Positions 26,939 through 42,051 of a stretch of 64,000 nucleotides of DNA are shown piece after piece. The position numbers and the translations under genes are program-made. Source of the stretch: Geopsychrobacter electrodiphilus DSM 16401. GTDB lineage: Bacteria > Desulfobacterota > Desulfuromonadia > Desulfuromonadales > Geopsychrobacteraceae. Position 1 is the first letter of the stretch; each line of letters begins with the position of its first letter. Location: assembly GCF_000384395.1 (NCBI RefSeq), contig NZ_ARWE01000001.1, positions 3,012,501 to 3,076,500 on the forward strand. Reading direction: 5' to 3'. The notes beneath the pieces are model-generated. The model was not told where the DNA came from. It searched no databases and saw only the letters and a program-made list of their open reading frames with translations.

Positions 26939-28015
26939 TCACGCACCGTCGCAAACGGAAGCTAACTTACCCAGCGCCTGTAGCAAAAAGAGATTCTGCT
27001 CTTCCCTGAGCACCGCGAAGCGCAGGTAACGCCTGTCCAGTGGTAAAAAATCACAGCAACTGCGCAGTAACAGCCCCTGAGGTCGCAATTGTGTGACAAT
27101 CTGCGGCGCAGGAGGCCAGTGATCCGGCAGGCGACAAAGCAGATAGTTGGCTTCACCGGCGAAGACCTGCCAGCCGAGCTGTTCGAGACCCTGTTGAAAT
27201 TGCGCACGCAGTCGTGGAATCATCTCCAGAGTGCGGAGCTGGAAGGTCTCTGCTTTCAGACAGGCGCGTGCCGCGACAATTGCCAGATTTGACAGACTCC
27301 AGGGTTCGCGTCCAGCCGCCAGCAGCCTGATATCGGCAGCGGACCCCGCCAGATAACCGGCGCGCAGACCCGGAATGGCATAAAACTTGGTCATCGAACG
27401 CAACAGCAACAGATTTTGTCGCTCGACCACTCTGGAGATCAGAGACCGCTCAGGGCAGAAATCGACAAAGGCCTCATCGACCAGCAGACGACAGTCTCCC
27501 AGTCGATCCGCCAGTTCGATCAGCTGTCCCGGCACGATGCCGACACCACTGGGATTACCGGGATTGGCCAGCACCACCAGATCTGTGTGTGGCTGAAGCA
27601 CAGCGAGAATATCAGAAACATTAAATGCAAAATTATTCTGCGGGTCGAGGCTAAAGTGGTCAATCTGACAGCCGACCTGCTGCAGGGCGGGGGCATACTC
27701 ACCAAAACCGGGTTGAATCAGCAAGGCACGGCGTGGTCGCAAGACCCGCGGCAGCAGATAAATCAGTTCAGTCGAACCGCTGCCGGGGAGCAGATGTGCT
27801 TCGGGCAGTTGATGAAAGCGCGCCAGCTCCAAGCGCAGGCTGGCACCATCGATTTCAGGGTAATCAGTGATGCGACCCAGGGCCTGCTGCAAGGCCTGCT
27901 GCACACCGGGGGGAACCCCGAGCGGGTTGATGCTGGCCGAAAAATCGCAGATCTGGCTGCGCCCCAGCCCCAGCTCATGCATCGCAGCATCCACCCCACC
28001 ACCGTGCACCCTCAT
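26939..28015 (-). CDS. cobD: Threonine-phosphate decarboxylase CobD
   Basis: A 358-aa PLP enzyme of the aminotransferase I/II fold, close to histidinol-phosphate aminotransferase. In the cobamide pathway it decarboxylates L-threonine O-3-phosphate to (R)-1-aminopropan-2-ol phosphate, the side arm that joins the nucleotide loop. Visible features are FSASINPLGVPPGV near the N-terminus, LPGSGSTELIYLLPR, NPGNPSG, DEAFVDF and the PLP-lysine motif RSMTKFYAIPGLRAGY. Position as last gene of the operon, overlapping cbiB by ATGA, supports CobD over HisC. Confidence 0.9.
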   Translation of the reverse strand: MRVHGGGVDAAMHELGLGRSQICDFSASINPLGVPPGVQQALQQALGRITDYPEIDGASLRLELARFHQLPEAHLLPGSGSTELIYLLPRVLRPRRALLIQPGFGEYAPALQQVGCQIDHFSLDPQNNFAFNVSDILAVLQPHTDLVVLANPGNPSGVGIVPGQLIELADRLGDCRLLVDEAFVDFCPERSLISRVVERQNLLLLRSMTKFYAIPGLRAGYLAGSAADIRLLAAGREPWSLSNLAIVAARACLKAETFQLRTLEMIPRLRAQFQQGLEQLGWQVFAGEANYLLCRLPDHWPPAPQIVTQLRPQGLLLRSCCDFLPLDRRYLRFAVLREEQNLFLLQALGKLASVCDGA

Positions 28016-28953
28016 GAAAAAACTCCGAGGAGCAAGACCGCCGGTAGCAAGCCCAGAAACGCCGAGGTGTAAAGTAGCCGAATCATCGACTGGTAATGCC
28101 CGATGGTGATCGCTTCGCTGGCATCACCGAGGGTCGGCTTTTCAATCTGCGCACCGAAGTAGACCGCGGCCCCGCCCAACTGCAAATTAAGCGCCCCGGC
28201 CGCCGCCGCTTCGGGCCAGCCAGCATTAGGGCTGGCGTGTTTGCGCGCGTCCCGCCACATGATCCGCCAGGCGCCGGAGCCATTGAGTCCCGTCAGCCAG
28301 GCCGCCCCGACCAGCAGCAAACCGGTCAAGCGCGCCGGAATCCAGTTAAGCAGATCATCCAGCTGCGCCGCGCTGCGACCGAAATGCAGGTAGCGCTCAT
28401 TTTTATACCCGACCATCGAATCCATGGTATTAACCGCCTTGTAGAGCAACGCCGCCACCGGCCCACCGAGACACAGGTAAAAAAGCGGCGCGATCACGCC
28501 GTCAGATGCATTTTCGGCCAGGGTTTCAACCGTTGCCCGCAGAATCCCGGCTTCATCCAGTTGCGCAGTTTCACGTCCGACGATCATCGCCAGTGCCTGC
28601 CGCGCCCCACCGACATCCCCCTCTTTCAGGGCCTCAATCACCGGCAGCGACTCAAGATGCAGACCACGCAGCGCCAGACAACTCGCGGCAAGCCAGAGTG
28701 CCAGAAGGCTCTGAAAGAGACCGGCAATCGCTCCGGCAATCTGAAGGGCAGAGATCACGGCAAAGCCGACAATGCCCAGCACCGACAGAACCAGCAGCAG
28801 GCCGGCCAACGACTCATGCCTGACCCGCTGACGTAATTCATCTTCCAGTCCTGTGATCAGGCGTCCGATCCAGACCACCGGGTGCGGCCAGTGACGCGGA
28901 TCGGCAAAGAGCAGATCCAGCACCACCGCAGCGACCAACAGCTCGGCACTCAT
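28012..28953 (-). CDS. cbiB: Adenosylcobinamide-phosphate synthase CbiB
   Basis: A 313-aa inner-membrane protein with several hydrophobic helices. It attaches aminopropanol phosphate to adenosylcobyric acid. Family landmarks are LDLLFADPRHWPHPVVWIG at the N-terminus, ENASDGVIAPLFY in the middle, and NTMDSMVGYKNERY, the conserved loop. Its start and stop both overlap neighbours by ATGA (with the CbiH-CobQ gene and with cobD), so the last three genes are tightly coupled. Confidence 0.95.
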   Translation of the reverse strand: MSAELLVAAVVLDLLFADPRHWPHPVVWIGRLITGLEDELRQRVRHESLAGLLLVLSVLGIVGFAVISALQIAGAIAGLFQSLLALWLAASCLALRGLHLESLPVIEALKEGDVGGARQALAMIVGRETAQLDEAGILRATVETLAENASDGVIAPLFYLCLGGPVAALLYKAVNTMDSMVGYKNERYLHFGRSAAQLDDLLNWIPARLTGLLLVGAAWLTGLNGSGAWRIMWRDARKHASPNAGWPEAAAAGALNLQLGGAAVYFGAQIEKPTLGDASEAITIGHYQSMIRLLYTSAFLGLLPAVLLLGVFS

Positions 28954-31286
28954 TTCTCTGCTCCGCTGGTTTTCGGCGGGATCAGCCAGCTAAGGATTTG
29001 CGGAAGGTCCAGGTGGGCCTCCAGATGATCCGCGAGGCGGTCGAGTTCACCTTCGAGATCGTAGGCCGGCAGGGTCCGATCGGCGGCACCATGACGTAGG
29101 GGGGCCAGCACCGCCCGACGCAACTCATCATTATCGAAGATACCGTGCAGATAGCTGCCCCAGACCCGCCCATCGGCTGAAACGGCGCCATCATAGAGCA
29201 CTACCCGTTGTTTGGAACGTTCAGTCAACTGCAGCAGGGGTCGGCAGGCGGAGCCGTATTCGGTTTCGCCGGCGTGAATTTCGTAGCCGCTCAATTCGGC
29301 AAGCCCCGAAAATCCGGCCGCCGCCGCGGCAGGTTGAAGTTGCGCGCGCACCTGGTGAGTCTGCTTGTCGCGACACAGAGTCGTATCTAAGTCGAGCAGG
29401 CCGAGTCCCTCCCCGACGGCCTGTGACGACTCGACCCGCTCGGGGTCAAGGATGCGCCTGCCGAGCAGCTGCAGCCCACCACAGATCCCGATCAGGCGCC
29501 CGCCCTGTGCGGCAAAAGTTTGAATAGCGCCGAACAGGCCGCTGGTCTTAAGAAACTCAAGATCGGCCAGAGTGCTCTTGGTCCCGGGCAGAATCAGCAG
29601 ATCGAGATTTTGCAGCTGCGCGGGATGTTCGACGTAGATCAGGTCAACGTCCGGCTCACGCGCCAGGGCATCGAAATCGGTATGGTTGGAAATGCGCTGC
29701 AGCCGCACCACTCCGACCAGCACCGTCCCCCCGCCAGTGCTGCGCCGTTCAAGACCGAGGGAATCTTCAGCTGGTAGATCGAGTTTCAGATAGGGGACTA
29801 CGCCGATCACCGGGAGCCCGGTGCGATCCTCTATCGCGGCGATGCCGCTGTCGAGCAGGCTGGCGTCGCCGCGAAAACGATTGATGATGATCCCCCGCAG
29901 TAGCGCGCGTTCTGCGGGTGTCAGCAGTTCAACCGTGCCGAGGATGCTGGCGAAGACCCCGCCGCGTTCGATGTCGGCGACCAGAATCCCCGCCGCACCG
30001 GCCATCTCGGCCGCCTTGAGGTTGGTGAAGTCATGGGCGCGCAGGTTGATCTCGGCGATGCTTCCCGCCCCTTCGAGCACCACCAGTTCGACCTGTCCTG
30101 AGAGCCGTCGGTAAGAATCGACCACCTTGGTCCAGACCTGATCCTTGTACTGATGATACTCGCGCACCCCCATGTTACCGACCGGGCGACCCTGCACGAT
30201 CACCTGGGAACCGGTCTCGCTGTTCGGCTTGAGCAGAACCGGGTTCATATCGACGTGCGGTTGCAGCCCGCAGGCCGCCGCCTGCAACGCCTGGGCTCGA
30301 CCGATCTCGCCGCCACCCGGGGTCACCGCCGAGTTATTCGCCATATTCTGCGCCTTGAAGGGCGCGACCAGGTAACCCCGGCGTTTCAGAATGCGGCACA
30401 GTCCGGCGCTGATCACGCTCTTGCCGACATCCGAGCCGGTACCGCCGATAAAAAGTGCGTTGCACTTTTTATCCGTGAGGGGTGAGGAGTGAAGGGTTAG
30501 GGGTATGCTGATCTCCACCTCACTCTTCACCCCTGACACCTCACGCTTCTTCTCATAACCACGCGGAGTCACCATCCGGCCCTGATTATCGACCCGCGTA
30601 CTGCTATTACCGATGATCACTACGGAGAACATGTCGATCTCGGCTTCGAGCATGTCGGCCAGAGTCGTAAGGCAGACGCTCTCCCCGGCGCGGCAGGCGT
30701 TACGCACGATGCCGACCGGGGTCTCGGGAGCACGATGACGCATCAGAATCGCGCGCGCTTCTCCGATCTGGGTGGTGCGGCCGCGACTCTTGGGGTTGTA
30801 AAGCGCGATGACAAAATCGGCCCGCCCGGCCGCGTCCAGACGTCGCCGGATCAGGCTCCAGTCGGTCAGCAGGTCGGAGAGCGAGATCACCGCGAAGTCA
30901 TGCATCAGGGGGGCGCCGAGACGCGCGGCCGCGCCCTGGACGGCGGAAACCCCAGGGATGATCTCGACCTCAACCACGGCCGGACCCTCAAGCTGCTGCA
31001 GCTCAAGCACCAGTCCCGCCATGCCATAGATCCCGGCGTCGCCACTGCAGACCAGCGCTACCACGGCCCCTTGCGCCGCACGCCGCAAGGCCTCACGGCA
31101 GCGCTCAGTCTCCTGCCGCATGCCGGTCGCGAAGGTCTCTTTAGTCCCGATCAGATCAGCGATCAGCTCAAGGTAAACCTGATAGCCGGTGACGACAGTG
31201 GACGATTCAATGGCGGTCAGCGCCGCCGGGGTCATATGTTGAGCGTCCCCCGGGCCGAGACCGATGACAAAGAGTTTTTTCTGCAT
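28950..31286 (-). CDS. cbiH-cobQ: Fused precorrin-3B C17-methyltransferase (CbiH) and cobyric acid synthase (CobQ)
   Basis: A 778-aa bifunctional protein. Residues 1-~243 are CbiH: GLGPGDAQHMTP, the CSGDAGIYGMAG substrate loop, IPGVSAVQGAAARLG and LYNPKSRGRTTQ; it would methylate C17 and contract the ring. Residues ~275-778 are CobQ/CbiP: IGGTGSDVGKSVISAG P-loop, FKAQNMANNSAVT, LEGAGSIAEINL and a glutaminase-type C-terminal domain with GICGGLQLLG and a late His (SYLHGIFDN); it amidates four side chains of adenosylcobyrinate diamide. The ~24-residue joint (~248-271) is encoded by a palindromic repeat and matches neither family. No stop interrupts the frame. In most genomes these are separate genes. 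Confidence 0.93.
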   Translation of the reverse strand: MQKKLFVIGLGPGDAQHMTPAALTAIESSTVVTGYQVYLELIADLIGTKETFATGMRQETERCREALRRAAQGAVVALVCSGDAGIYGMAGLVLELQQLEGPAVVEVEIIPGVSAVQGAAARLGAPLMHDFAVISLSDLLTDWSLIRRRLDAAGRADFVIALYNPKSRGRTTQIGEARAILMRHRAPETPVGIVRNACRAGESVCLTTLADMLEAEIDMFSVVIIGNSSTRVDNQGRMVTPRGYEKKREVSGVKSEVEISIPLTLHSSPLTDKKCNALFIGGTGSDVGKSVISAGLCRILKRRGYLVAPFKAQNMANNSAVTPGGGEIGRAQALQAAACGLQPHVDMNPVLLKPNSETGSQVIVQGRPVGNMGVREYHQYKDQVWTKVVDSYRRLSGQVELVVLEGAGSIAEINLRAHDFTNLKAAEMAGAAGILVADIERGGVFASILGTVELLTPAERALLRGIIINRFRGDASLLDSGIAAIEDRTGLPVIGVVPYLKLDLPAEDSLGLERRSTGGGTVLVGVVRLQRISNHTDFDALAREPDVDLIYVEHPAQLQNLDLLILPGTKSTLADLEFLKTSGLFGAIQTFAAQGGRLIGICGGLQLLGRRILDPERVESSQAVGEGLGLLDLDTTLCRDKQTHQVRAQLQPAAAAAGFSGLAELSGYEIHAGETEYGSACRPLLQLTERSKQRVVLYDGAVSADGRVWGSYLHGIFDNDELRRAVLAPLRHGAADRTLPAYDLEGELDRLADHLEAHLDLPQILSWLIPPKTSGAEK
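30475..30545. repeat. Palindromic repeat at the CbiH/CobQ joint
   Basis: Two ~27-bp arms (left from 30475 GTGAGGGGTGAGGAGTGAAG, right ending at 30543) match as an inverted repeat at 22 of 27 positions around a ~15-nt loop. It lies in frame, exactly where one enzyme domain ends and the next begins. The arms are low-complexity GTGAGG-type sequence unlike the flanks. Confidence 0.8.
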
Positions 31287-31321
31287 TTTGAGCCCTGTCT
31301 TAAGGAGCGATAAACCCGGGA

Positions 31322-32374
31322 TTAGGTTTTGATTTCAGCGATGGCCACCGTCACGTTGCCGTTCTTCTTTTTTTTCACCAGCATGCGCCCACCGCTTGAA
31401 ACCAAAAGAGCGGCCGGTTCGCACACCCCTTTAGCGCCGACAGCATGCTGGACATAATCAGAGGCGGGGGTTGGTGCCTCGATGGCGTTCAAGTCATCCG
31501 CGCTGTAAAAATGAAGGGGCAGCCTGTGTTTGTCTGCGAACTGCAGCAGGCCGACTTCGTCCTGTTTGGCATCGATACTGGCAATGGCGCCGATACTGGC
31601 GAAAGCGAGGAATGCCTCCCGCAGGGTCTGACGCACAACCATTTCGATTTCGTCAGCGGAAGTGTCGCGATTGCAGCCGATACCGACCGCCAGATTACGC
31701 GGCCGCAAGGCCAGCAGGTCAGGTCGGTCATTGAGCGGCGGCAAATAACGATTGCTGACAAAAACGTAACCGGCGGCGGTCTGTTCCAGAGCCGTCGCAA
31801 AACTGCGGACTATCTTTACGCAGGGGATATTTTGGTAGGCTGCGGCAACCGCGCCTTCAGCGTCGGCCAGCACAATCGGTTGCTGCTCAAGGAGCAGACG
31901 ATTGAGCAGCTTGATCCGCGTCAGCGGCTCGACCGCCATATTGCACTTGCGCGCAACCTCGTCAAAGGCGGGAAGCTGGTTGACATCGGTCGCGGTGGTA
32001 ATGACCGCCGTGCCCCCCAGGAATGAGGCGACTTCTTCAGCGAGTTCGTTAGCACCACCGAGATGCCCCGAGAGCAAGCTGATGGCGAACTGTCCCGCTT
32101 CATCGCACACCACCACCGCTGCATCCTGATCTTTCCCCTTGAGATGCGGCGCGAGCAGGCGCATGACGATCCCGCTGGCCATGATACAGATCAGCCCATC
32201 GACCCTGGCAAAAAGCTGAGGCAGCAGCTCTGAAAGTTTTCCATCAAAGTAGTTTAGACCGTCTGCCAGGCGAAACTTCTCCGGTAACCAGAGCTCGGCA
32301 TCCTCGGCCTGCGCATGGAGTCTTCTGGCGAGTTGGGCGCCGCCGCTGGTGATAGCGATGATGGCAAGGGTCAT
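31322..32374 (-). CDS. cbiG: Cobalt-precorrin-5A hydrolase CbiG
   Basis: A 350-aa enzyme that opens the delta-lactone and removes the C20 carbon as acetaldehyde in the anaerobic pathway; it is a marker of the early-cobalt route. The N-terminal region carries GLICIMASGIVMRLLAPHL and VCDEAGQFAISLLSGHLGGAN, the central region TATDVNQLPAFDEVA, and the C-terminal region LAVGIGCNRDTSADEIE and KQDEVGLLQFA. The length is normal. It is separated by 64 bp from cbiF upstream and 35 bp from the CbiH-CobQ gene downstream, on one strand. Confidence 0.94.
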   Translation of the reverse strand: MTLAIIAITSGGAQLARRLHAQAEDAELWLPEKFRLADGLNYFDGKLSELLPQLFARVDGLICIMASGIVMRLLAPHLKGKDQDAAVVVCDEAGQFAISLLSGHLGGANELAEEVASFLGGTAVITTATDVNQLPAFDEVARKCNMAVEPLTRIKLLNRLLLEQQPIVLADAEGAVAAAYQNIPCVKIVRSFATALEQTAAGYVFVSNRYLPPLNDRPDLLALRPRNLAVGIGCNRDTSADEIEMVVRQTLREAFLAFASIGAIASIDAKQDEVGLLQFADKHRLPLHFYSADDLNAIEAPTPASDYVQHAVGAKGVCEPAALLVSSGGRMLVKKKKNGNVTVAIAEIKT

Positions 32375-32438
32375 AGGGCTCGACTCGACTGGTTTGCAGT
32401 GAAAACCTCAGGTTGGGATCAAAACGCACTGACTTGTG

Positions 32439-33236
32439 CTACTCGACCTTGCTCCGATAACCGTGGGCAAAGCCAGCATCATAGAGTTTGGACTTCTCCG
32501 GCACCCCCTGGCGGCGCGCTTTCAAAACCTCACCGACCAGCACCAGGGCCTGGCGGGTAATTCCCGCCGCGGCGACCCTGGCGGCGATATCGGCAAGGGT
32601 GCCCTCGACGATCTTTTCATCCGGCCAGCTGGCACGGTAGACAACGGCAGCAGGGGTCTGTGGAGTGAACACCCCGCCAGCCAGCAGGTCCACAACCAGC
32701 TGGTCCATCATCCCGACCGAAAGGTAAAGACAGATCGTTCCGCCGTTGCGTGCGATGTTACGCAAGGCTTCGCTATCGGGCACCGGAGTGCGTCCCGCCA
32801 GCCGCGTCAACACCAGAGTCTGCGAAACCCCGGGGAGGGTCAGCTCCTGTTTGAGACTGGCGGCGGCGGCAAAGGTCGCCGTAACCCCGGGGATAACACG
32901 GTATGGAATATTCTCGGAATCCAGCACTTCCATCTGTTCCTGGATGGCGCCGTAGAGAGCGGGATCGCCGGTATGCAGACGCACCACCTTTTTGCCCGCC
33001 CGCGCCCCGGCAATCAAAAGTACCAGCACCTGCTCCAGATTGAGCGGGGCGCTGTCGTAGATTTCGCAGCCGGCTGGACATTCATCGAGCAGCGCCGGGT
33101 TCACCAGCGAACCGGCATAGACCACCAGCTCGGCCTGCTGCAGCGCCTTCAAGCCCTTGACCGTAATCAACTCCGGATCACCGGGACCGGCGCCGACAAA
33201 GATAACCTCACCCGGTGTCATTTGAAAATTGTTCAT
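32439..33236 (-). CDS. cbiF: Cobalt-precorrin-4 C11-methyltransferase CbiF
   Basis: A 265-aa SAM-dependent tetrapyrrole methylase. Family motifs are VIFVGAGPGDPELITVKG at the N-terminus, VVRLHTGDPALYGAIQEQ, IPYRVIPGVTATFAAAA and the VVYRASWPDEKIVEGTL segment. It methylates C11. The start at 33236 has only a weak ribosome site, possibly because a repeat element (33266-33391) now occupies the sequence just upstream. An ATG five codons later has none either. Confidence 0.93.
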   Translation of the reverse strand: MNNFQMTPGEVIFVGAGPGDPELITVKGLKALQQAELVVYAGSLVNPALLDECPAGCEIYDSAPLNLEQVLVLLIAGARAGKKVVRLHTGDPALYGAIQEQMEVLDSENIPYRVIPGVTATFAAAASLKQELTLPGVSQTLVLTRLAGRTPVPDSEALRNIARNGGTICLYLSVGMMDQLVVDLLAGGVFTPQTPAAVVYRASWPDEKIVEGTLADIAARVAAAGITRQALVLVGEVLKARRQGVPEKSKLYDAGFAHGYRSKVE

Positions 33237-33265
33237 TCAGGTGTCCAAATCAGTAGAAATAACCC

Positions 33266-33391
33266 GATGGCTAAGCAAAAATTTCGTCCAGCAAGGCTCC
33301 GGTGGGAATCAAGGGCGCAGGCATACGCCAGAATGTCAAGATCTTGCTTACCGCCGACAACGCAGCTGGGCGGAATTTTTGCGCCGCCATC
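33266..33391. repeat. Inverted-repeat element (MITE-like) between cbiET and cbiF
   Basis: Terminal arms are GATGGC-N3-GCAAAAATTTCGTCCAGC (33266-33292) and its inverted partner GCTGGGCGGAATTTTTGC-N3-GCCATC (33365-33391); the 18-bp inner part pairs at 16 of 18 and the 6-bp tips pair perfectly. The ~72-bp core contains the palindrome CAAGATCTTG (33337-33346). The right tip overlaps the cbiET stop codon (33390-33392). No coding capacity is seen. Confidence 0.8.
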
Positions 33392-34601
33392 AGTCTTTCA
33401 CCGCCGTCAGAATATAGACCGGGTTGTAAGCCTCGAACATCTTGTAGCTGGTCAGCGGACGGGTGCGGGAGATATTGACCGTCACCACCTCAAGTTCGTA
33501 GCCCGCGTTACCGAAGAATTCGCTGGCCGAGGTCAGGGTATCGAGGGTTATCGCGTTCAGCACGATCCGCCCGCCGCTCGCCAGACGCTGATCAACAAGC
33601 TTCAGGATATCCCACAGATGCCCGCCCGAACCACCGATGAAGACCCGGTCAGGATCGGGCAGATTCTCAAGACACTGGGGCGCATCCCCTTCGACTAGCT
33701 GGACATTGCGGGTGTTGAACTTTTGCAGATTCTGCTTGATATACCTGCGGCACTCTTCATTGCGCTCGATGGCGAAGATCCGCCCGTTAGGCAGCAGATG
33801 ATCGGCCTCAATCGAGATCGACCCCGAACCGGCGCCGACGTCCCACAAGCACATATCGTGACGTAGCTTCAGCTTAGCCAGGGTGACGACGCGCACCTCT
33901 TCCTTGGTGATCAGCTTCTTGACCGTAAAAAACTCATCGTCCGGAATCCCGAGGGTCGGCACATAGGCCTGGTCTTCATCATCGAATTCGCGGATCAGGA
34001 GCAGGACATTCAAGGGGGCGGCCTCGGTTTTGGCCAGATCAATAATATTGCTGATGCGAATGCGCTCCCTGGGGGTCCCCAGATCTTCGCACAGATAGGC
34101 GCGATAGCCACTGCGTCCGCGTTCGAGCAACGCCTTGGCGATTGCCGCCGGGGTATTGACCTCATCGGTCAGAATCGCGGATTTATCGTTGGCCATAATC
34201 CGGTCAATCGCCTTCTGCAGCCCGCGTCCATGGACCGAAAGAAAGACCGCGTCATCCCAGGGTTCACGAATTTTGGCAAAGGCGTATTGCACCGAGGTGA
34301 CATTCGGCAGGAATTCAAGCAGGCTGTCGGGCAGGTTGCGCAACAGGTAGCGTCCGATACCGAAGAAGAGCGGATCGCCCGAGGCCAGCACCACGCTATG
34401 CCCCTGATGACGCTGGAGCTTCTCAACCAGATCACCCAGGTTCCGATCGATCAGCAGTTTTTCACCGCGGAAATCAGGGAAGAGCGCCAGCAGCCGTTCG
34501 CCGCCGCAGAGCAGATCGGCTTCGCGGATCCGTTCGAGGGCCTGATTGCCGAAGGCTTCCTGGCCGTCGATCCCGGCTCCGATCACATGGATACTTTTCA
34601 T
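33390..34601 (-). CDS. cbiET: Precorrin-6Y C5,15-methyltransferase (decarboxylating) CbiET
   Basis: A 403-aa fused enzyme. The N-terminal half is a CbiE-type tetrapyrrole methylase (HVIGAGIDGQEAFGNQAL, LASGDPLFFGIGRYLL, NVTSVQYAFAKI). The C-terminal half is CbiT, a Rossmann methyltransferase (LWDVGAGSGSISIEA, IFAIERNEECRRYIKQN, DPDRVFIGGSGGHLWDIL). Together they methylate C5 and C15 and decarboxylate the C12 acetate. The start at 34601 has GAGGAGG 5 nt upstream; a frame extending to 34628 lacks one. The stop codon lies on the tip of a repeat element. The CbiE-CbiT fusion is common (CobL). Confidence 0.95.
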   Translation of the reverse strand: MKSIHVIGAGIDGQEAFGNQALERIREADLLCGGERLLALFPDFRGEKLLIDRNLGDLVEKLQRHQGHSVVLASGDPLFFGIGRYLLRNLPDSLLEFLPNVTSVQYAFAKIREPWDDAVFLSVHGRGLQKAIDRIMANDKSAILTDEVNTPAAIAKALLERGRSGYRAYLCEDLGTPRERIRISNIIDLAKTEAAPLNVLLLIREFDDEDQAYVPTLGIPDDEFFTVKKLITKEEVRVVTLAKLKLRHDMCLWDVGAGSGSISIEADHLLPNGRIFAIERNEECRRYIKQNLQKFNTRNVQLVEGDAPQCLENLPDPDRVFIGGSGGHLWDILKLVDQRLASGGRIVLNAITLDTLTSASEFFGNAGYELEVVTVNISRTRPLTSYKMFEAYNPVYILTAVKD

Positions 34602-34630
34602 GGGGGCCTCCTCAAGGCACTGGGTCAAGC

Positions 34631-35686
34631 TTAAGCAAATTTACGCACCACCGTCCCCTGATAATCGACCAGCAGGAGCTGCAGAGCGGTGTCGGGAAGA
34701 ATCTTGCGACAATGACGCAGCGCTTCGGCCGCCACCCTGTCGATCAGTGCCGATTCGGCGCCGAAGCTGACAAAAATATCGCGGGCAGTGTGGGCCAACT
34801 CTAGCTGTGATCTGTCGGCAGGGTCAAGGTCGATCTCGGTCGACCAGTGCCGCACCTGATCCAGATCGAGACTGGAGTTCCGCACATGGGTTTGCGGGTG
34901 ACCGCAGGCGATTTTAATCAACTTGGCGAACTGTCCGGCCAGCACCAGGCGCGGCACCTGCTTGCGAGCGCAGGCGTCCAGGCAATAACCGATATGATCC
35001 CCCATCATAACAAAGGCTTCGTCCGGCAGCTGCGGTAGATAAATGCGCGCCGCCGTTTCGCTGCTGCGTCCGGTGCTCAGGACCAGTTCAGTCGTCGCGC
35101 TGGCCAGCCCGACATCCAGTGCCACCTCCAGCGTGTCGGTCCAGGCCTGATGGCTGATCGGACGTACGATGCCGGTGGTGCCGAGGATCGATAGCCCACC
35201 CTTAATGCCGAGCCGTGCGTTCATGGTCTGAAGCGCGCGAACTTCTCCTTCGGGGATGAAAATTTCAACGCGGAAGCCACCGACCGGGAAGACTTCACGC
35301 AGCGCAGTTGTGATCATCTGACGCGGCACCGGATTGATCGCCGGCTCACCAACCGGCAGAGCCAGCCCCGGCTTGGTGATAGTGCCGACCCCGACCCCGG
35401 CGACAAATTCGAGGATTTCTCCCGGGATGCGACTCAGGCGCGTGCCGATCTCAACCCCGTGAGTCACATCGGGATCATCACCGGCATCCTTGATCACAGT
35501 AGCTAGCGCGGCATCTTCATCAAATTGACAGCTGTGCAGCACAAAACGCACCCGATCCCCAGCTGGCATCGCCACCAGGACCTCGGTGGGCGAAACGCCA
35601 TCGCGCATCAGTTGAGCCGCGCCCAGGGTCGCGGCGGCGGCGCAGGTGCCGGTGGTAAAACCGCTGCGCAGGACCTTCTTCATCAA
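34631..35686 (-). CDS. cbiD: Cobalt-precorrin-5B C1-methyltransferase CbiD
   Basis: A 351-aa methyltransferase specific to the anaerobic pathway; it methylates C1. The conserved N-terminus RSGFTTGTCAAAATLGAAQL is clear, as are GVGTITKPGLALPVGEPAINPVP, GILGTTGIVRPIS (here SILGTTGIVRPIS) and VMMGDHIGYCLDAC. The length is normal. Its start overlaps the cbiC stop by ATGA, and it is followed 29 bp later by cbiET. Confidence 0.95.
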   Translation of the reverse strand: MMKKVLRSGFTTGTCAAAATLGAAQLMRDGVSPTEVLVAMPAGDRVRFVLHSCQFDEDAALATVIKDAGDDPDVTHGVEIGTRLSRIPGEILEFVAGVGVGTITKPGLALPVGEPAINPVPRQMITTALREVFPVGGFRVEIFIPEGEVRALQTMNARLGIKGGLSILGTTGIVRPISHQAWTDTLEVALDVGLASATTELVLSTGRSSETAARIYLPQLPDEAFVMMGDHIGYCLDACARKQVPRLVLAGQFAKLIKIACGHPQTHVRNSSLDLDQVRHWSTEIDLDPADRSQLELAHTARDIFVSFGAESALIDRVAAEALRHCRKILPDTALQLLLVDYQGTVVRKFA

Positions 35687-36315
35687 TCAGCGGCCTGCAG
35701 CATGAGCGCATTCAGAATGGTCGCCGCAATCGCCGAGCCGCCCTTGCGCCCGCGACAACAGATATAAGGGAGTTCACTGCGACAGAGTGCCTCTTTCGAC
35801 TCGGCCGCGCCGACAAAGCCGACCGGCACCCCAACCACCAGCGCCGGGTCGACCGCTCCCCCCTCAGCCAGGCGCAGGAGCTCAAACAGCGCCGTTGGCG
35901 CATTGCCGATCAGAAAGAGATTGCATCCCTCTTCGACCCCTTTGCGCAGCGCCATGATTGAGCGCGTGACGCCCTTTGCCTTCGCAGCCGTAGCGACATC
36001 GCTGTCTGCCACATGACAGACCGCGCTTCCACCCAGTTTGGCCAACAGGGTCTTATTGATCCCTGAAAGCACCATGTTGGTGTCGCACAGGATCTTCGCC
36101 CCGCCACGCAGGGCATCAATGCCACGCACAACCGCCAGAAACGAAAACTCGGTCGAATCGACAAAGGAGAAATCAGCGGTGGTGTGAATAACACGCCGCA
36201 CCAGGGGCCACTGCTGTTCATCGAATTGATGCGAACCGACCTCGGCATCGATAATGCGGAAACTTTCAGTCTCGATCGCTTCGGGTTTGACAATCGTCGG
36301 GCCTGTACCAGCCAT
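35683..36315 (-). CDS. cbiC: Cobalt-precorrin-8 methylmutase CbiC
   Basis: A 210-aa enzyme that moves the C11 methyl group to C12, giving cobyrinate. Conserved segments are RRVIHTTADFSF with the catalytic His, ILCDTNMVLSGINK, AKGVTRSIMALRKG, LFLIGNAPTALFELL and GVPVGFVGAAESKEAL. It follows the ThiC-family gene after 20 bp and overlaps cbiD by ATGA. Confidence 0.96.
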   Translation of the reverse strand: MAGTGPTIVKPEAIETESFRIIDAEVGSHQFDEQQWPLVRRVIHTTADFSFVDSTEFSFLAVVRGIDALRGGAKILCDTNMVLSGINKTLLAKLGGSAVCHVADSDVATAAKAKGVTRSIMALRKGVEEGCNLFLIGNAPTALFELLRLAEGGAVDPALVVGVPVGFVGAAESKEALCRSELPYICCRGRKGGSAIAATILNALMLQAAD

Positions 36316-36335
36316 AAAAAATCCTTTAGTGAAGA

Positions 36336-37643
36336 TTAAACCTTATCCCCGCGCAGGTCCTGCTTGAACAGTTCGCCCGCGCCGCGTGAGGCGCAGAAAT
36401 CGCCACACATGGTGCAGGTATCCTCATCCTCGGGGGTGCGACTGGCGCGGATGGCACGGGCGTCTTCGGGGAAGAGCGCCAGTTCAAACTGTTTCTCCCA
36501 CTTGAGGTCGCGCCGCGCCTTGCTCATCTCTTTATCACGCTCGCGGCCGCGTTCCGGGTACTTGTTCATGTCGCCGATATAGGCCGCGATCTTGGCCGCC
36601 TTGACCCCGTCGATCACATCCTTTTCGTTGGGCAGGGCCAGATGCTCGGCAGGAGTAATATAACAGATCAGGTCGGCACCGTAACGGCTCGACTGCGCGG
36701 CACCGATGGCAGCGGTGATGTGATCGTAGCCGGGAGCGACGTCGCTCGAGATCGGGCCGAGCATATAGTAAGGGGCACCGCCGCTCATCCGTTTCTGCAG
36801 GCGGATGTTGGTCTCAATCTCGTCCAGCGGCATATGTCCCGGGCCTTCAACCAGCATCTGACAACCCATCTCATGCCCGAGTTCGGCCAATTCACAGTTG
36901 ATCAAAAGCTCCTGAACCATGGCGCGGTCATGACTGTCGTGAATCGCCCCGGCGCGCAGACCGTTGCCGAGGGAGAGCACCACATCATACTTCTTGAGGA
37001 TAGCGCAGACCCGGTCGAATTGTGCGTAGAGTGGATTCTCGCGGCCGTTCTTCATCATCCAGGCCACCATCGAGACCCCGCCCTTGCTGACCAGACCTCC
37101 ATAACGATAACCCTGCTTGCGCAGCCGTTCAATGGTGTAGAGGTTGATACCACAATGAATCGCCATGAAGGCCAGTCCATCGGCGCACTGCTGTTCAATA
37201 ATATCGAAGAGCATCTCCGGGTCGAGCTTGTTCGGATCACCATATTTGCGTGCCGCCTCGCAGAAGGCCTGATAGAGCGGTACGTTGCCGACCGGTAGAT
37301 CGACGGCGGCGATCACTTCGCGGCGCACCCGATCGAGGTCACCACCCACCGAAAGCTCCATCAGGGTATCCGCGCCAGCGGCCTGAGCGGCCAGGGCCTT
37401 GCGGATTTCGGCGTCGTAATCGACGATATCACTGCTGGTGCCGATGGAGGCGTTGACCTTGGTGCGCATCCCCTTCCCGATTCCGGCCGAGAGCGGATTG
37501 CGCTTAAGGTTGTTGGGGATAACCACCTTCCCCTCGGCGACCATCTGGCGTACGAACTCTTCAGTCAAGCATTCATTGTTGGCTACGGCCGCCATCTGCG
37601 GTGTCACAACACCCTGCCGGGCGAATTCAATCTGGGTTGCCAC
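36336..37643 (-). CDS. bzaF: ThiC-family radical SAM enzyme, probably 5-hydroxybenzimidazole synthase BzaF (alternatively ThiC)
   Basis: A 435-aa protein of the ThiC superfamily, which rearranges aminoimidazole ribotide by 5'-deoxyadenosyl radical chemistry. The fold is typical (QIEFARQGVVTPQM, KVNASIGTSSD, MELSVGGDLD, LVEGPGHMPLDEIE, SDVAPGYDHI). The C-terminal iron-sulfur motif is CTMCGDFC (Cx2Cx3C). ThiC makes the thiamin pyrimidine, while its paralogue BzaF, characterised from Desulfuromonas/Geobacter relatives, makes 5-hydroxybenzimidazole, a cobamide lower ligand. Location between cbiA and cbiC inside a riboswitch-led cobamide operon with cobT, and no thiamin gene nearby, favours BzaF. 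The start is GTG 37643, 9 nt after GGAGG, overlapping cbiA by 17 bp. Confidence 0.7.
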   Translation of the reverse strand: MATQIEFARQGVVTPQMAAVANNECLTEEFVRQMVAEGKVVIPNNLKRNPLSAGIGKGMRTKVNASIGTSSDIVDYDAEIRKALAAQAAGADTLMELSVGGDLDRVRREVIAAVDLPVGNVPLYQAFCEAARKYGDPNKLDPEMLFDIIEQQCADGLAFMAIHCGINLYTIERLRKQGYRYGGLVSKGGVSMVAWMMKNGRENPLYAQFDRVCAILKKYDVVLSLGNGLRAGAIHDSHDRAMVQELLINCELAELGHEMGCQMLVEGPGHMPLDEIETNIRLQKRMSGGAPYYMLGPISSDVAPGYDHITAAIGAAQSSRYGADLICYITPAEHLALPNEKDVIDGVKAAKIAAYIGDMNKYPERGRERDKEMSKARRDLKWEKQFELALFPEDARAIRASRTPEDEDTCTMCGDFCASRGAGELFKQDLRGDKV

Positions 37644-39021
37644 GCGGTACTTCCTCCTTGATGCATTCACAAAAATTCACGAAATTTTCTGCCAGTTGCG
37701 GGTTGCTGCCGAAATGCAGATGCACATAGCTGGCAAGCACATTTTTGTAACTGAACCCTTCACTGCCTAAATCGGTCCCGCCCTTGCGACTGAGACGATA
37801 ACTGCGCCCGACCGAATCGGGCATCTCGACTTCCGAATAATGGAACTCATGCCCACGAGCGATGGTGCCGGCCGGTCCGAGGGGGGTGTCACTACTGAAA
37901 CAGACTTCGCGGTAGCCGAGGGCTTTGCGCTCTTCCAACAGGCGCGACCGCGCCGGGAAAATGCCGCACATGGGCTGATCATTCAACCCCGCACACAAGA
38001 GCAGCATGCCTCCGCACTCGGCGTAGATTGGCAGACCCGCATCGGCGGCACTGCGCAGTTGTGCGATCAGTTCAGTATTCGCCGCCAGCTGCTCGAGATA
38101 AAGCTCGGGATACCCACCGGGCAAATAAAGTCCATAAATCCCCTTCGGTAAGGGCTCGATCAGTGGCGAAAAGAAAATGAGCCCGGCGCCGACCGCTTCG
38201 AGGGCTTCCAGGTTTTCCGGGTAGCAGAAACAGAATGCCGCGTCACGCGCCACGGCAATTATGGGTTGAGTCCCCCTCACCCGGCCTCTGTCCATCTTCT
38301 CCCTCAGAGAGAGGGGCTGGGGGTGTTGGACGGGATGAGGTTGCAGCCCAACCAGCAGAGCATCCAGATCAAGATGCGCTTCCACAAGATCCGCCAATAC
38401 GGCATAGTCGACGGCCTGCTCTCCGGCGGTAACCAGCCCCAGATGACGCTCGGGCAGATTCGCTTCTGCTTTACGTGGCAAGCAGCCGAGCAGTGGTGGC
38501 AGGCCGGGGACAGATGCCAGCGCGGCCTTCAGCAACTCCGCATGGCGGCTCGAACCGACGCGATTGAAGATCACCCCGGCAAACTGCAGCCGCGGATCGA
38601 AGTCGACAAAACCCTTCACCAGCGCCGCGGCGCTGCGCGCCTGCGAACGCGCGTCGACCACTAATAAAATTCGACCGTTCAGCCAGCCCGCGACTTCTGC
38701 AGTCGAGCCCTCATCGGATTCCCCTGAGGCCCCATCAAACAGGCCCATGACCCCTTCGATGAGCGCGACATCGGCGCCGGCACAGCCCCTGACATAGGTC
38801 GCGCGTACCGCCTGCTCGCCACACATCCAGCCATCAAGGTTGCGGCTGACCCTGCCGCTGGCTGCGGCATGATGGCTGGGATCGATAAAATCAGGCCCGA
38901 CCTTGAAGGGTGCGACCACTAACCCGCGGCGTTTCAGCGCCGCGAGCAGGCCGAGGGTCAGGGTCGTCTTGCCGCTCCCGCTCGCCGGAGCAGCGACGAT
39001 TATAGGTTGAAGCCCGCTCAC
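37627..39021 (-). CDS. cbiA: Cobyrinic acid a,c-diamide synthase CbiA
   Basis: A 464-aa glutamine-dependent amidotransferase acting on cobyrinate. The P-loop is VAAPASGSGKTTLTLGLL, followed by FKVGPDFIDPSHHAAASG and LIEGVMGLFDGASGESD. The C-terminal glutaminase-like half has GLYLPGGYPELY, YAECGGMLLLCAGL with the nucleophile Cys, and a C-terminal YVHLHFGSNPQ. A stretch at residues ~228-249, between LDLDALLVG and IIAVARDAAFCF, is encoded by a palindromic repeat and is not part of the family pattern. The start overlaps the cobC stop by ATGA. Confidence 0.95.
   Translation of the reverse strand: MSGLQPIIVAAPASGSGKTTLTLGLLAALKRRGLVVAPFKVGPDFIDPSHHAAASGRVSRNLDGWMCGEQAVRATYVRGCAGADVALIEGVMGLFDGASGESDEGSTAEVAGWLNGRILLVVDARSQARSAAALVKGFVDFDPRLQFAGVIFNRVGSSRHAELLKAALASVPGLPPLLGCLPRKAEANLPERHLGLVTAGEQAVDYAVLADLVEAHLDLDALLVGLQPHPVQHPQPLSLREKMDRGRVRGTQPIIAVARDAAFCFCYPENLEALEAVGAGLIFFSPLIEPLPKGIYGLYLPGGYPELYLEQLAANTELIAQLRSAADAGLPIYAECGGMLLLCAGLNDQPMCGIFPARSRLLEERKALGYREVCFSSDTPLGPAGTIARGHEFHYSEVEMPDSVGRSYRLSRKGGTDLGSEGFSYKNVLASYVHLHFGSNPQLAENFVNFCECIKEEVPRGNPD
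38274..38340. repeat. Palindromic element inserted in frame in cbiA
   Basis: Outer arms CCTCACCCGGCC (38275-38286) and GGACGGGATGAGG (38328-38340) pair with one bulge and two mismatches. The inside carries TTCTCCCTCAGAGAGAGGGG, itself partly palindromic. The pattern is like widespread CCCTCACCCGGCC-type repetitive extragenic elements, but here it lies inside a gene and keeps the frame. Confidence 0.75.
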
Positions 39022-39632
39022 GTCTCAGTCTCCGCCGCATTCAACAGCTGCACCGTGGTATACCCGTCAGCAAAAAAGTCGATGATATTGTAACAGCCAT
39101 AGCTCTGCTCAAGATGAAACATCTGGGTCAGCGGCGCACCGATCGCATCAAGCAGAATCACTCTGTTGACCCCACCGTGGGCGACCAGCGCGATCTCTTC
39201 ACCCGGGTGTTTTGCGAGCAGTTCAGCGACGACCAGGCGCACCCTGTCAGCCATCTGCTGCAAGTTTTCGCCACCCGGCGGTGCAATATTGACCAGGTCA
39301 TTGAGACGCGCCTGCCATTCAAGCGGCCAGCGCAACTGAATCTCATCCCAGGTCAAGCCCTCCCAGTCGCCGATATGCAATTCCCGCAACCGCGGATCCT
39401 GGACCGGGTTCAGGTGATGCTGGGTCCCAATCAGGTTTGCGCCAAAAGCTGAGCGACAGAGGTCGCTGCTGTAAACGGCAGTCAGCGGGACAGACATGAC
39501 CCTTGCGGCATAACCGTGCGTCTGCCCAATCCCTAAAGCGGTCAGGGGCACATCAGCCTGGCCGTTATAGCGCCGGGCTTCAAAGCCGACAACCTGACCG
39601 TGACGCATAAGATGAAGACGCATTTTCAGCAT
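39018..39632 (-). CDS. cobC: Alpha-ribazole phosphatase-like histidine phosphatase (CobC)
   Basis: A 204-aa histidine phosphatase (phosphoglycerate mutase-like branch). The RHG motif is HLMRHGQVV; the second conserved His is in IALVAHGGVNRVIL. Between them, RELHIGDWEGLTWDEI is typical of CobC. It would remove phosphate from alpha-ribazole 5'-phosphate, or from adenosylcobalamin 5'-phosphate, at the end of the pathway. The family is broad, but position between cobS and cbiA makes the cobamide role likely. Confidence 0.88.
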   Translation of the reverse strand: MLKMRLHLMRHGQVVGFEARRYNGQADVPLTALGIGQTHGYAARVMSVPLTAVYSSDLCRSAFGANLIGTQHHLNPVQDPRLRELHIGDWEGLTWDEIQLRWPLEWQARLNDLVNIAPPGGENLQQMADRVRLVVAELLAKHPGEEIALVAHGGVNRVILLDAIGAPLTQMFHLEQSYGCYNIIDFFADGYTTVQLLNAAETET

Positions 39633-39635
39633 TTT

Positions 39636-40391
39636 TTAACTTCCAAAGGTCGCCAGCACCAGCAGTAGAACCAGCACCTCGACCATTTCGGTCACCGCGC
39701 CGAGCACATCACCGGTGACCCCACCGAGGCGACTTTCGAAATAGCGCAGAATCAGCATGGTAGCTATCCCGAGCAGAAAAACGAGAAAGATCCCCTTGAC
39801 CGAAAAAAGGACCAACGAGGCGACAATCAGGGTGGCGGTGGCGCGTAAAAACTCGGGCTGACCGACATTCTCGACAAAGGCACTGCCGGTCCCGCCTTCG
39901 GAGCGGACATAGGGGGCATAGCAGCAGAGACAAACCTGCATCCAGCGGCCAGCGGCCGGCATGAAGATCAGCGCGGCATTTTTATATTCCAGCGGCACAT
40001 GATAGAGGCTCAGATATTTGAGCAACAGCACCATCACCAGTCCGACCACGCCGATGGCTCCGACCCGGCTGTCTTTCATGATTTCGAGCATCGAGGCCCG
40101 ATCCTTGCCACCCGCCAGGCCGTCAAACAGATCGGCGACGCCGTCGAGGTGCAGCGCGCCGGTCGCCGCAATCAGCAGCAGGACCAGCAGACAGTCGAGC
40201 ACGGCGCGCGGCAACAGCCCCTGTAGCATCCAGTTGGCCACACACAGACCCAGCCCCAACAGCAGCCCGACCGCAGGGAAGAGGCCCATGCTGCGTCCCA
40301 GCATTTCGGGAGTGGCCTTGATATCCCGACCGACCGGGAAAACGGTCAGAAAGGAGATCGCCAGACGGAAGTCATCCCAGCACGCCCTCAT
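39636..40391 (-). CDS. cobS: Adenosylcobinamide-GDP ribazoletransferase CobS
   Basis: A 251-aa inner-membrane protein with about six hydrophobic helices. It joins activated cobinamide to alpha-ribazole phosphate. Conserved regions are [12 protein letters not shown] near the N-terminus and [20 protein letters not shown], the signature with acidic residues that bind magnesium. [13 protein letters not shown] near the C-terminus is the second family signature. The start overlaps the cobT stop by ATGA; cobC follows after 3 bp. Confidence 0.95.
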
Positions 40392-41449
40392 TGATCATCG
40401 CCGGCGGAAACACCCGCATCATCAAAGGTCCGGACCTCGCGCAGGACCTGCAGGCTGGCTTCGATCAGGGTCATGGCCAGGGCACCACCGGTCCCCTCGC
40501 CGAGACGCAGATTCAGATCGAGCAGCGGTTGCTGACCGATCCGTTGCAGCATGTGCCGATGCCCGATCTCGACCGACTGGTGGGCGGCGAAGATATAGTC
40601 GCGCACATGCGGATGAAGTTCCGACGCAATCAGGGCGCCGGCAGTCGAAATGAAACCATCGACCACCACAGGCAGGCCTTCGGCCGCGCAGCCCAGAACC
40701 AATCCGGCGATCCCTGCGATTTCGAAGCCACCAACCTTGGCCAGAACATCGATCGGATCCTCTGGATCGGGCTGATTGATCTCGAGCGCCCGGTTGATCA
40801 CTTTAATCTTCTTGCCGAGGGCGGCATCATCAATGCCAGTGCCGCGATGGGTCACCTGGAACGGCGTCAATCCGGTGAACGCCGCGACGATCGCCGAAGA
40901 AGGGGTGGTATTAGCAATCCCCATGTCGCCGGTACCGAGCAGATCAACGCCATCGTCCTTTGCCTGAGCGGCCAGTTCAACCCCCGCCTGCAATGCCGCC
41001 AGGGCCTGCTCACGGGTCATGGCCGGGCCAATAGCAATATTCCCGGTCCCCATGGCGATCTTGCGGTCAATCAGTCCGGAAAGGCCGGCGAAGTCATGAT
41101 TAACCCCCATGTCGACCACCCGCACTTCGGCACCGGCGTGACGGGCCAGGGCATTTACCGCCGCCCCACCCTCGATGAAGTTGTAAACCATCTGCGGCGT
41201 CACCTCCGCGGGAAAGGCGCTGACCCCTTCGGCAGCAACGCCGTGGTCGCCGGCGAAGGTGTAAATCCGTTTGGCGCGAATATCTTCACGACCCGTGATC
41301 GCAACATAGCGTCGGCTCAGCTCTTCAAGCCGCCCGAGTGAACCCTGGGGCTTGGCCTGACGATCGATGCGCGACTGAATGGTTTTTAGTTTCTCTTCGC
41401 TGATCGGCTGAATGCGCGCGAAGACAGCTTGCAGATTAAAATCGGACAT
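40388..41449 (-). CDS. cobT: Nicotinate-nucleotide:benzimidazole phosphoribosyltransferase CobT
   Basis: A 353-aa enzyme that activates the lower-ligand base by forming its alpha-ribotide from nicotinate mononucleotide. Conserved segments are [59 protein letters not shown] and the catalytic-Glu region [15 protein letters not shown] precedes ATG 41449 by 5 nt, so this start is preferred to one four codons upstream. With a BzaF-like gene in the same operon, the base loaded is probably 5-hydroxybenzimidazole (inference). Confidence 0.95.
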
Positions 41450-41470
41450 GACGTACCTCAAAAAAAGAGT

Positions 41471-41490
41471 TCCCTCGCCCTGAGGGAGAA
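41471..41490. repeat. Short hairpin related to the cbiA element
   Basis: TCCCTC-GCCCT-GAGGGA is a 6-bp perfect stem between cobU and cobT. On the - strand it reads TTCTCCCTCAG, an 11-base match to the core of the element in cbiA (38297-38307). It may be a remnant of the same repeat family. Confidence 0.4.
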
Positions 41491-41507
41491 GAGTAAAATT
41501 CCAAGTT

Positions 41508-42029
41508 TTATTTCAATTTCAACGGCAAACCAGCGACCACCAGCCAGGCGTCATCGGCCGCTGCGGCCAGGCGTTGATTGACAATTCCCGCCAGATCGCG
41601 AAAATGTCGCGCCAGCGGATTGTCAGGTACAATCCCGCTCCCCAATTCATTACTGACAAGATACAAAGGCTCATCCAGCTGCCAGGCCAGTTCGAAAAAA
41701 CGGTCGACCTCGGCGAGAATCGGGCCCTGTTTCTCCTCAAAATGAAAGAACAGATTGCTGATCCACAGGGTCACGCAATCGAGCAAAATTGCCCCTTTGC
41801 CCGGGGCCGACTCCAGGAGTTTGTCGGCCAGCCAGAGTGGTTCTTCCAGCAGGTGCCAACGTTCACCTCGCGTCTCCTGGTGCAGGCGCACGCGGCGCAG
41901 CATCTCATCATCTTCTGCCTCGGCCGGAGCGATATAGAGCAGTTTCCCCTTATGCTTCTCAGCCAACTGCTGGGCAAAATTACTTTTCCCACTACGCGCA
42001 CCACCGGTGATAAAGATCATCTGCCCCAT
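41508..42029 (-). CDS. cobU: Adenosylcobinamide kinase/guanylyltransferase CobU
   Basis: A 173-aa bifunctional enzyme that phosphorylates adenosylcobinamide and adds GMP. It has P-loop [37 protein letters not shown] with the guanylylated-His region, [14 protein letters not shown], and [21 protein letters not shown]. The start at 42029 follows GGGAGGAG at 5 nt; an in-frame start at 42047 has no site. It is 22 bp after cobO. Confidence 0.95.
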
Positions 42030-42051
42030 AGAAACTCCTCCCGTCACTCGG

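Follow-up and report, generated by a model that had tools for sequence, protein, structure and literature searches.

Known Repeats and the Element Between cbiET and cbiF

ERIC is an imperfect palindrome that invites comparison with the repeat described here, an imperfect palindrome of 126 bp at positions 33266–33391 of a 64,000-nucleotide stretch of Geopsychrobacter electrodiphilus DSM 16401 (contig NZ_ARWE01000001.1, positions 3,012,501 to 3,076,500), in the gap between the genes cbiET and cbiF of a cobalamin (vitamin B12) operon; the whole stretch is called “the window” below. The relevant passages of a review (PMC10969869) treat ERIC as a miniature inverted-repeat transposable element (MITE) that is mostly intergenic, with insertions at the 3′ ends of genes altering transcript levels in Yersinia enterocolitica; they also give 178–235 bp for the Chunjie MITE of Geobacter uraniireducens and describe the Correia elements of Neisseria as a small MITE of 204 bp, at whose inverted repeats RNase III can cut transcripts. 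RU-1, an intergenic repeat of 127 bp, is likened to MITEs in PMC2759123. Finally, the portions of the G. metallireducens and P. carbinolicus genome descriptions concerned with repeats (PMC2700814, PMC3543383) report multicopy nucleotide sequence families, many of them intergenic and some palindromic.

The family of the window element resembles ERIC and RU-1 in being MITE-like and intergenic. Compared by description, it differs from ERIC in its host group, its 150-bp unit, its 6-bp target duplications, its GATG...TCGCAAAAA ends, its TCA-N4-TGA target and its rebuilding of stop codons; Rfam gave no match for positions 33000–33700 at E-values up to 1. On the same descriptive footing, the unit of about 150 bp contrasts with the 204 bp of the Correia element and the 178–235 bp of Chunjie, kinship with the latter being neither shown nor excluded by such a comparison. 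The present family may be among the multicopy families mentioned above, and so have been seen before; its tip sequences are absent from the full texts that we searched.

The best explanation, which we hold to be very probable as a whole, is that the element belongs to a family of non-autonomous MITEs present in many genomes of the order, whose insertion can rebuild a stop codon, and that the copy in the cbi operon is old and vertically inherited.

Terminal Repeats, Target Duplications and an Empty Site

The full family unit is short (about 150 bp), non-coding and multicopy; it consists of an imperfect hairpin of 126–127 bp and a short right tail, with ends GATGGCGTCGCAAAAA and TTTTTGCGANNGCATC and terminal inverted repeats of the form GATG...TCGCAAAAA. 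The inverted repeats expected of a MITE, here GATGGCGTCGC... and ...TTTTTGCGANNGCATC with mismatches allowed, are carried by 135 copies. In copies from other genomes, about 23 bp lie beyond the hairpin, made up of a short spacer plus the second terminal repeat, TTTTTGCGANNGCATC, and the flanks then repeat 6 bp. Among the copies assembled through several different searches, which form no random sample either for these counts or for the stop-codon counts given further on, a perfect 6-bp target duplication borders 52 of the 110 copies longer than 60 bp (mean of the shuffled control, 1.03) and 11 of the 22 copies with a 15-bp core, hereafter scar copies (shuffled control, 0.59). Three of the 135 tailed copies have other short lengths, and none of these three has a perfect duplication.

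A filled and an empty site were found in genus g5, where G012 reads GGGAATAAAAAAAGAGAAGG and its sister species G019 carries a 153-bp unit between TAAAAAAA and AAAAAAGA, bordered by two copies of AAAAAA; the family thus has both the duplication and the empty site that a MITE should leave. This G019 insertion (L176:1305-1457, with L175) lies in the gap before its own cbiF, in the opposite orientation and with the second of the two core types described below; it is a second event in another genus, separate from that of the window. The preliminary description of the window, made from the letters alone, had proposed a MITE-like element, and the copy number, the target duplications and this filled/empty site all bear it out.

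The insertion sites of the 62 copies with a perfect duplication share a motif: 55 have A at -6, 53 have T at -1 and 52 have A or G at +1, so that the family target is approximately the symmetrical TCA-N4-TGA. Taken together, the inverted repeats, the fixed 6-bp duplication and the symmetrical target point to a DDE-type transposase, which would be supplied in trans and move the element. What counts against this reading is that we found no autonomous relative or transposase: end pairs 0.6–5 kb apart were checked by eye (among the matches listed) and by script in genomes that are mostly fragmented assemblies, the DNA between the ends not being searched for transposases, and the pairs found by script look like the ends of neighbouring MITEs.

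Distribution of the Family

The impression that similar sequences are common in this bacterial order was supported by searches that found multiple copies across genomes. The element is neither single-copy nor devoid of inverted-repeat conservation, the combination that would have refuted a mobile-element reading; its own genome gave 3 BLAST matches, and matches occurred in 23 of 41 genomes, the own one included, five of these 23 having 16 or more matches counted (both figures among the matches listed). An exact 18-nt piece of the right arm matches at least 118 stretches of the species collection, and the 80 rows listed are mostly titled Desulfuromonadales, Desulfuromonadaceae, Geobacteraceae, Geopsychrobacter, Desulfuromonas, Desulfuromusa or Pelobacter. 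About 18 of these 80 rows are otherwise titled (7 Chloroflexi, an archaeon, Bacteroidales, Flammeovirgaceae, Calditrichota, Desulfurivibrio and broad names such as Deltaproteobacteria), for which binning errors are a possible explanation.

Of the 297 genomes sampled across the phylum, 11 have matches, the own one included, and 7 of these 11 belong to other classes. Among the genomes listed, 7 share the class but are of a different order, and none of them has a match. Five genomes of genus g133, which belongs to another class of the phylum (G199, G226, G273, G294 and G315), do match, and a first look at G199 and G315 gave many candidates. Horizontal spread to this genus is possible.

Searches of the plasmid and phage collections in distant mode, with one 150-bp copy as the query, gave no match. 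In viral contigs, a 16-nt tip was found in 9 stretches, and only L306 carries the element within the 165 nt examined around each. L306 is a contig of 4524 bases filed as viral, with the element starting at 273; it is possibly a bacterial fragment.

The Copy in the Window

The two arms lie where the preliminary description had placed them, at 33266–33292 and 33365–33391, with 27 nt each, 22 of 27 positions complementary and 72 nt in between. Its boundaries, 33266–33391, hold for the inner hairpin of 126 bp on the minus strand, which the alignment of 44 copies places in forward orientation, its GTC-type end lying at 33391 and its TTA-type end at 33266; they fall short of the full mobile unit of the family, which is about 23 bp longer and here would reach toward cbiF, to about 33245. 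The left, gene-side arm (33365–33391, minus strand) reads GATGGC-N3-GCAAAAA..., N3 being GGC here and GTC in the family consensus, and the right arm of the inner hairpin (33266–33292, minus strand) reads ...TTTTTGC-TTA-GCCATC. The presumed decayed right tail and terminal repeat occupy 33245–33265 on the minus strand, where the similarity to the family form (a short spacer plus TTTTTGCGANNGCATC, about 23 bp) is weak and the position is that of the family tail. A palindrome noted in the core, CAAGATCTTG (33337–33346), is present, yet it is no feature of the family: only 2 of the 5 orthologs have it intact, the family consensus reads otherwise, and we dropped it as incidental.

The overlap of the tip with the stop codon is real: the GCCATC tip (33386–33391) has two bases in common with the cbiET stop TGA (33392–33390, minus strand), of which the T is the gene's and the GA the element's. 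The gene-side copy of the target would be AAGACT (33392–33397, minus strand), with A first and T last like the family motif, and the ACACCT-GA immediately 5′ of the cbiF ATG (33237–33244, minus strand) possibly represents a decayed second target copy followed by the remainder of the original stop. Only 3 of the 6 target bases match, and this lack of a clear duplication, together with the decay of the right tail and repeat, is a weakness of the case for insertion at this particular site.

The flanking genes are cbiET (33390–34628, minus strand, start codon not settled), identified as CbiE-CbiT by TIGR02467/TIGR02469, and cbiF/cobM, for precorrin-4 C11-methyltransferase (32439–33236, minus strand), identified as CbiF by TIGR01465. 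The gap between them had been singled out as the only sizeable one of the operon, and at 153 bp it is indeed the widest between the minus-strand open reading frames (ORFs) from 26939 to 42047 in the program-made ORF list. That the element has no coding capacity is literally incorrect, as an antisense open frame of 420 aa crosses it; nothing suggests that this frame codes. The plus strand of the element folds at -59.8 kcal/mol (z -5.3; 0 of 200 dinucleotide shuffles equally good) and the minus strand at -54.9 kcal/mol (z -3.0; 3 of 200); since the cbi operon is on the minus strand, the sense strand of the operon is the weaker-folding one.

The Junction Across Relatives and the Age of the Insertion

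Of the 32 genomes that gave a cbiF match, 18 were taken, and we compared the 15 cbiET-cbiF junctions that they yielded. The element occupies the same position in the cbiET stop in five species of the genus (G000, which is the window, G004, G007, G005 and G002). Two further junctions hold a scar of 15–17 bp, TGATGGC-TTA-GCCATCA in G006 and TGATGGC-GTC-GCCATC in G003, which consists of the element tips and one or the other 3-nt loop side. The G001 junction is without the element, its stop and start overlapping, and the seven outgroup genomes (genera g6 and g7) are also without it, with junction gaps of 0–6 bp. On these outgroup states, we favour a gain in the ancestor of the genus followed by loss. 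G006 and G007 share 94.8 and 94.6% identity in their flanks, so the scarred and filled states came to differ recently and in place; the hairpin would have been deleted there through slippage from one GC dinucleotide to another at its foot. This genus naturally offers the operon in filled, scarred and empty form, which makes the effect of an intercistronic hairpin on cobalamin genes directly testable.

Constraint on the cbi Hairpin

The five orthologous elements have remained more alike than their surroundings: in all 10 pairs, element identity (0.70–0.91) is well above identity at 4-fold sites (0.44–0.58). Their identity to the family consensus is 0.70–0.82, compared with 0.89 for the average copy, a distance that fits an old age. 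Two-sided changes are found at 13 of 50 hairpin pairs, and at 12 of 46 when the sense strand is taken; the right arm is nearly invariant among the orthologs, while the outer tail varies by species. These observations are what one would expect if the element had been domesticated in the cbi operon, selection keeping the hairpin as an intercistronic RNA (or DNA) structure that tunes the expression of cbiF, and we regard domestication as a serious possibility, though one falling somewhat short of probable. Under the preferred, MITE interpretation as well, the kept hairpin would act in the cbi transcript as an intercistronic stability or processing element that sets cbiET apart from cbiF, and not as a terminator. 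The likeliest, still putative, effect on the operon is that of a folded spacer which uncouples the two genes and is maybe processed, as the preliminary description had suggested.

One has to set several facts on the other side. The hairpin was lost in G006 and G003 and is absent in G001, several of its pairs are disrupted in one or two of the five orthologs, and the operon's sense strand is again the weaker-folding one among the orthologs (z -3.5 to -6.0, versus -5.1 to -8.0 for the antisense strand). Moreover, the entire family is conserved, so gene conversion from other copies could resupply the cbi hairpin and keep it similar. We infer that the hairpin was kept either by selection or by such correction. 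At the site of the second copy of the own genome (L002), sought as a neutral control, none of the 4 sister loci read carries the element. At the place matching the L002 flanks, L369 and L371 (G001 and G007) carry a different inverted repeat of the CCCTCTCCCTGAGGGAGAGGG type and G006 has neither repeat, one gap being used by two repeat families.

A more far-reaching account would have a mobile family carry a selected RNA-like structure as its payload, with ends that make its landing, often at gene 3′ ends, silent, the cbi hairpin being kept by selection and sister species removing it nearly cleanly but for a small scar; we consider this rather unlikely in its entirety.

Insertion into Stop Codons

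The overlap seen in the window is not a local curiosity but recurs in the family. Insertion just behind the T of a stop codon rebuilds TGA, since GA opens the element and T is the usual last base of its target. In the 62 copies with a perfect duplication, a stop triplet starts at the last duplicated base in 30, against 0–11 at the other offsets from -9 to +9. When empty sites were rebuilt, for copies with a perfect duplication and enough flank, a frame open for 100 codons or more stopped exactly at the insertion point in 9 of 54, whereas each other offset within 60 bases on the same strand had at most 2 such stops. In the filled state, with 125 copies offering enough flank per side, frames of at least 80 codons end at T/GA in 28 of the 51 reaching the left end and in 10 of the 33 reaching the right end, for a total of 37 different copies, one of them at both ends. 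A stricter test took the 22 T/GA ends with a duplication of at least 5/6, for 16 of which the native stop was already there in the empty site. In a held-out set of 60 further loci, partly from genomes sampled before, 19 new copies were recognised, with stops at 5 of 19 filled and 3 of 13 rebuilt sites. As for the second copy of the own genome, it begins in a stop codon TAA whose preceding frame is open for 444 codons.

The sharp peak at a single offset could suggest that the transposition machinery is drawn to stop codons or gene ends in themselves, for instance via terminating ribosomes or transcripts. The bias toward the gene-side end (28 to 10) goes in the same direction, as does orientation: of 56 copies flanked by co-directional genes, 42 have their forward strand on the gene strand and 14 do not, in a count that took 107 of 148 copies (owing to flank limits and repeated loci), relied on a crude longest-ORF caller and classed 29 of the 107 as ORF-overlapping. 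However, the symmetrical target motif itself contains TGA, and a null of motif-matched points lying outside called genes predicts 8.5 stop hits over 80 loci, with 12 observed. Because of this null, we dropped attraction to stops as the main account and regard it as improbable.

The same data also temper what can be made of the stop-codon position under the preferred, MITE interpretation. A T precedes the left end in 114 of 133 copies and the right end in 116 of 133, so that an in-phase frame reaching the element must stop at T/GA, which makes part of the filled-state count mechanical; the 10 of 33 at the right end are about the chance level. Furthermore, 25 of the 80 insertion points are within ORFs of the crude gene caller. 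Target preference and selection largely suffice to account for the position, with no clear over-hitting of stops, the selective part presumably being the loss of damaging insertions. A stop-containing target and a stop-restoring terminus nevertheless offer a concrete route by which a transposable element may settle in dense operons without gene damage. Literature searches for the insertion of such elements into stop codons showed none among the matches listed, and the phrase “stop codon” is absent from the review PMC10969869.

Core Types and Fold Across the Family

Two core types exist, type A with CAGGACCTCGACATAC and type B, common in G019 and G012, with CACTGCTTCGACGTACGTAAGTACGCC; they share the ends and blocks such as GCGTT and GCCTTG. 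In an alignment of 44 diverse copies, at least one two-sided change that keeps the pair is seen at 25 of 41 consensus pairs, a count that leans to regular copies since the 9 copies left out by eye, from a non-redundant set of 53, were for the most part divergent or of outlying length. The strand beginning with the TAA arm retains several G-U pairs and is the one with the lower minimum energy in all 148 distinct copies (mean -59.5 versus -45.6); given that the copies share descent, this asymmetry is one inherited trait and not 148 events. Palindrome correction was considered as a cause of the covariation between arms; the conserved mismatched loops (N3; CAAGGC/CAACGC) make it a less likely one.

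The constant strand preference, the imperfect palindrome with its asymmetric 3-nt loops and the scars at the hairpin base are reminiscent of REP/REPIN-like or IS200/IS605-like hairpins moved by a Y1 (RAYT) transposase. The terminal inverted repeats and 6-bp target duplications do not fit such a mechanism, Y1 transposition not being known to make such duplications, and we judge it very improbable. A plain, non-mobile transcription terminator or attenuator is scarcely credible despite a hairpin that is strong on both strands, because the many dispersed copies have target duplications, no intrinsic terminator (GC-rich stem then U run) is predicted in 33100–33600, and the filled/empty pair of G019 and G012 refutes it as a full account, even if an effect on termination could still exist.

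Scars and Short Forms

The pattern GATGGC-N3-GCCATC, as left at the scarred junctions, was sought in 41 genomes. G011, G013, G024 and G034 hold 49 such sites (hand count among the matches listed), some without a recognised tail, and among these same 49 the N3 is of the GTC type in 28, of the TTA type in 7, GTA in 3 and another triplet in 11. A sample of left tips, independent of core length, gave among the matches listed 46 in G034 (4 exact 15-bp forms with a tail, 3 other short, 10 long and 29 unclassed by tail) and 35 in G011 (8 exact 15-bp forms with a tail, 3 other short, 8 long and 16 unclassed); each other short length was seen once, which sets the exact 15-bp form apart. Deletion between GC pairs at the base of the hairpin may account for three precise products, one of them GATGGCGTC-GC-TTAGCCATC in L252.

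Forms of 38–40 bp without the hairpin, yet with the tail and a duplication or near-duplication, occur in L222, L251, L259, L279, L292 and others. The scars of G011 mostly carry a tail different from that of its full copies, and some scars are possibly a 38-bp short form that spread separately. In G034, a sub-form of 113–114 bp is present in four copies (L241, L243, L246 and L253), as if a shortened element had spread.
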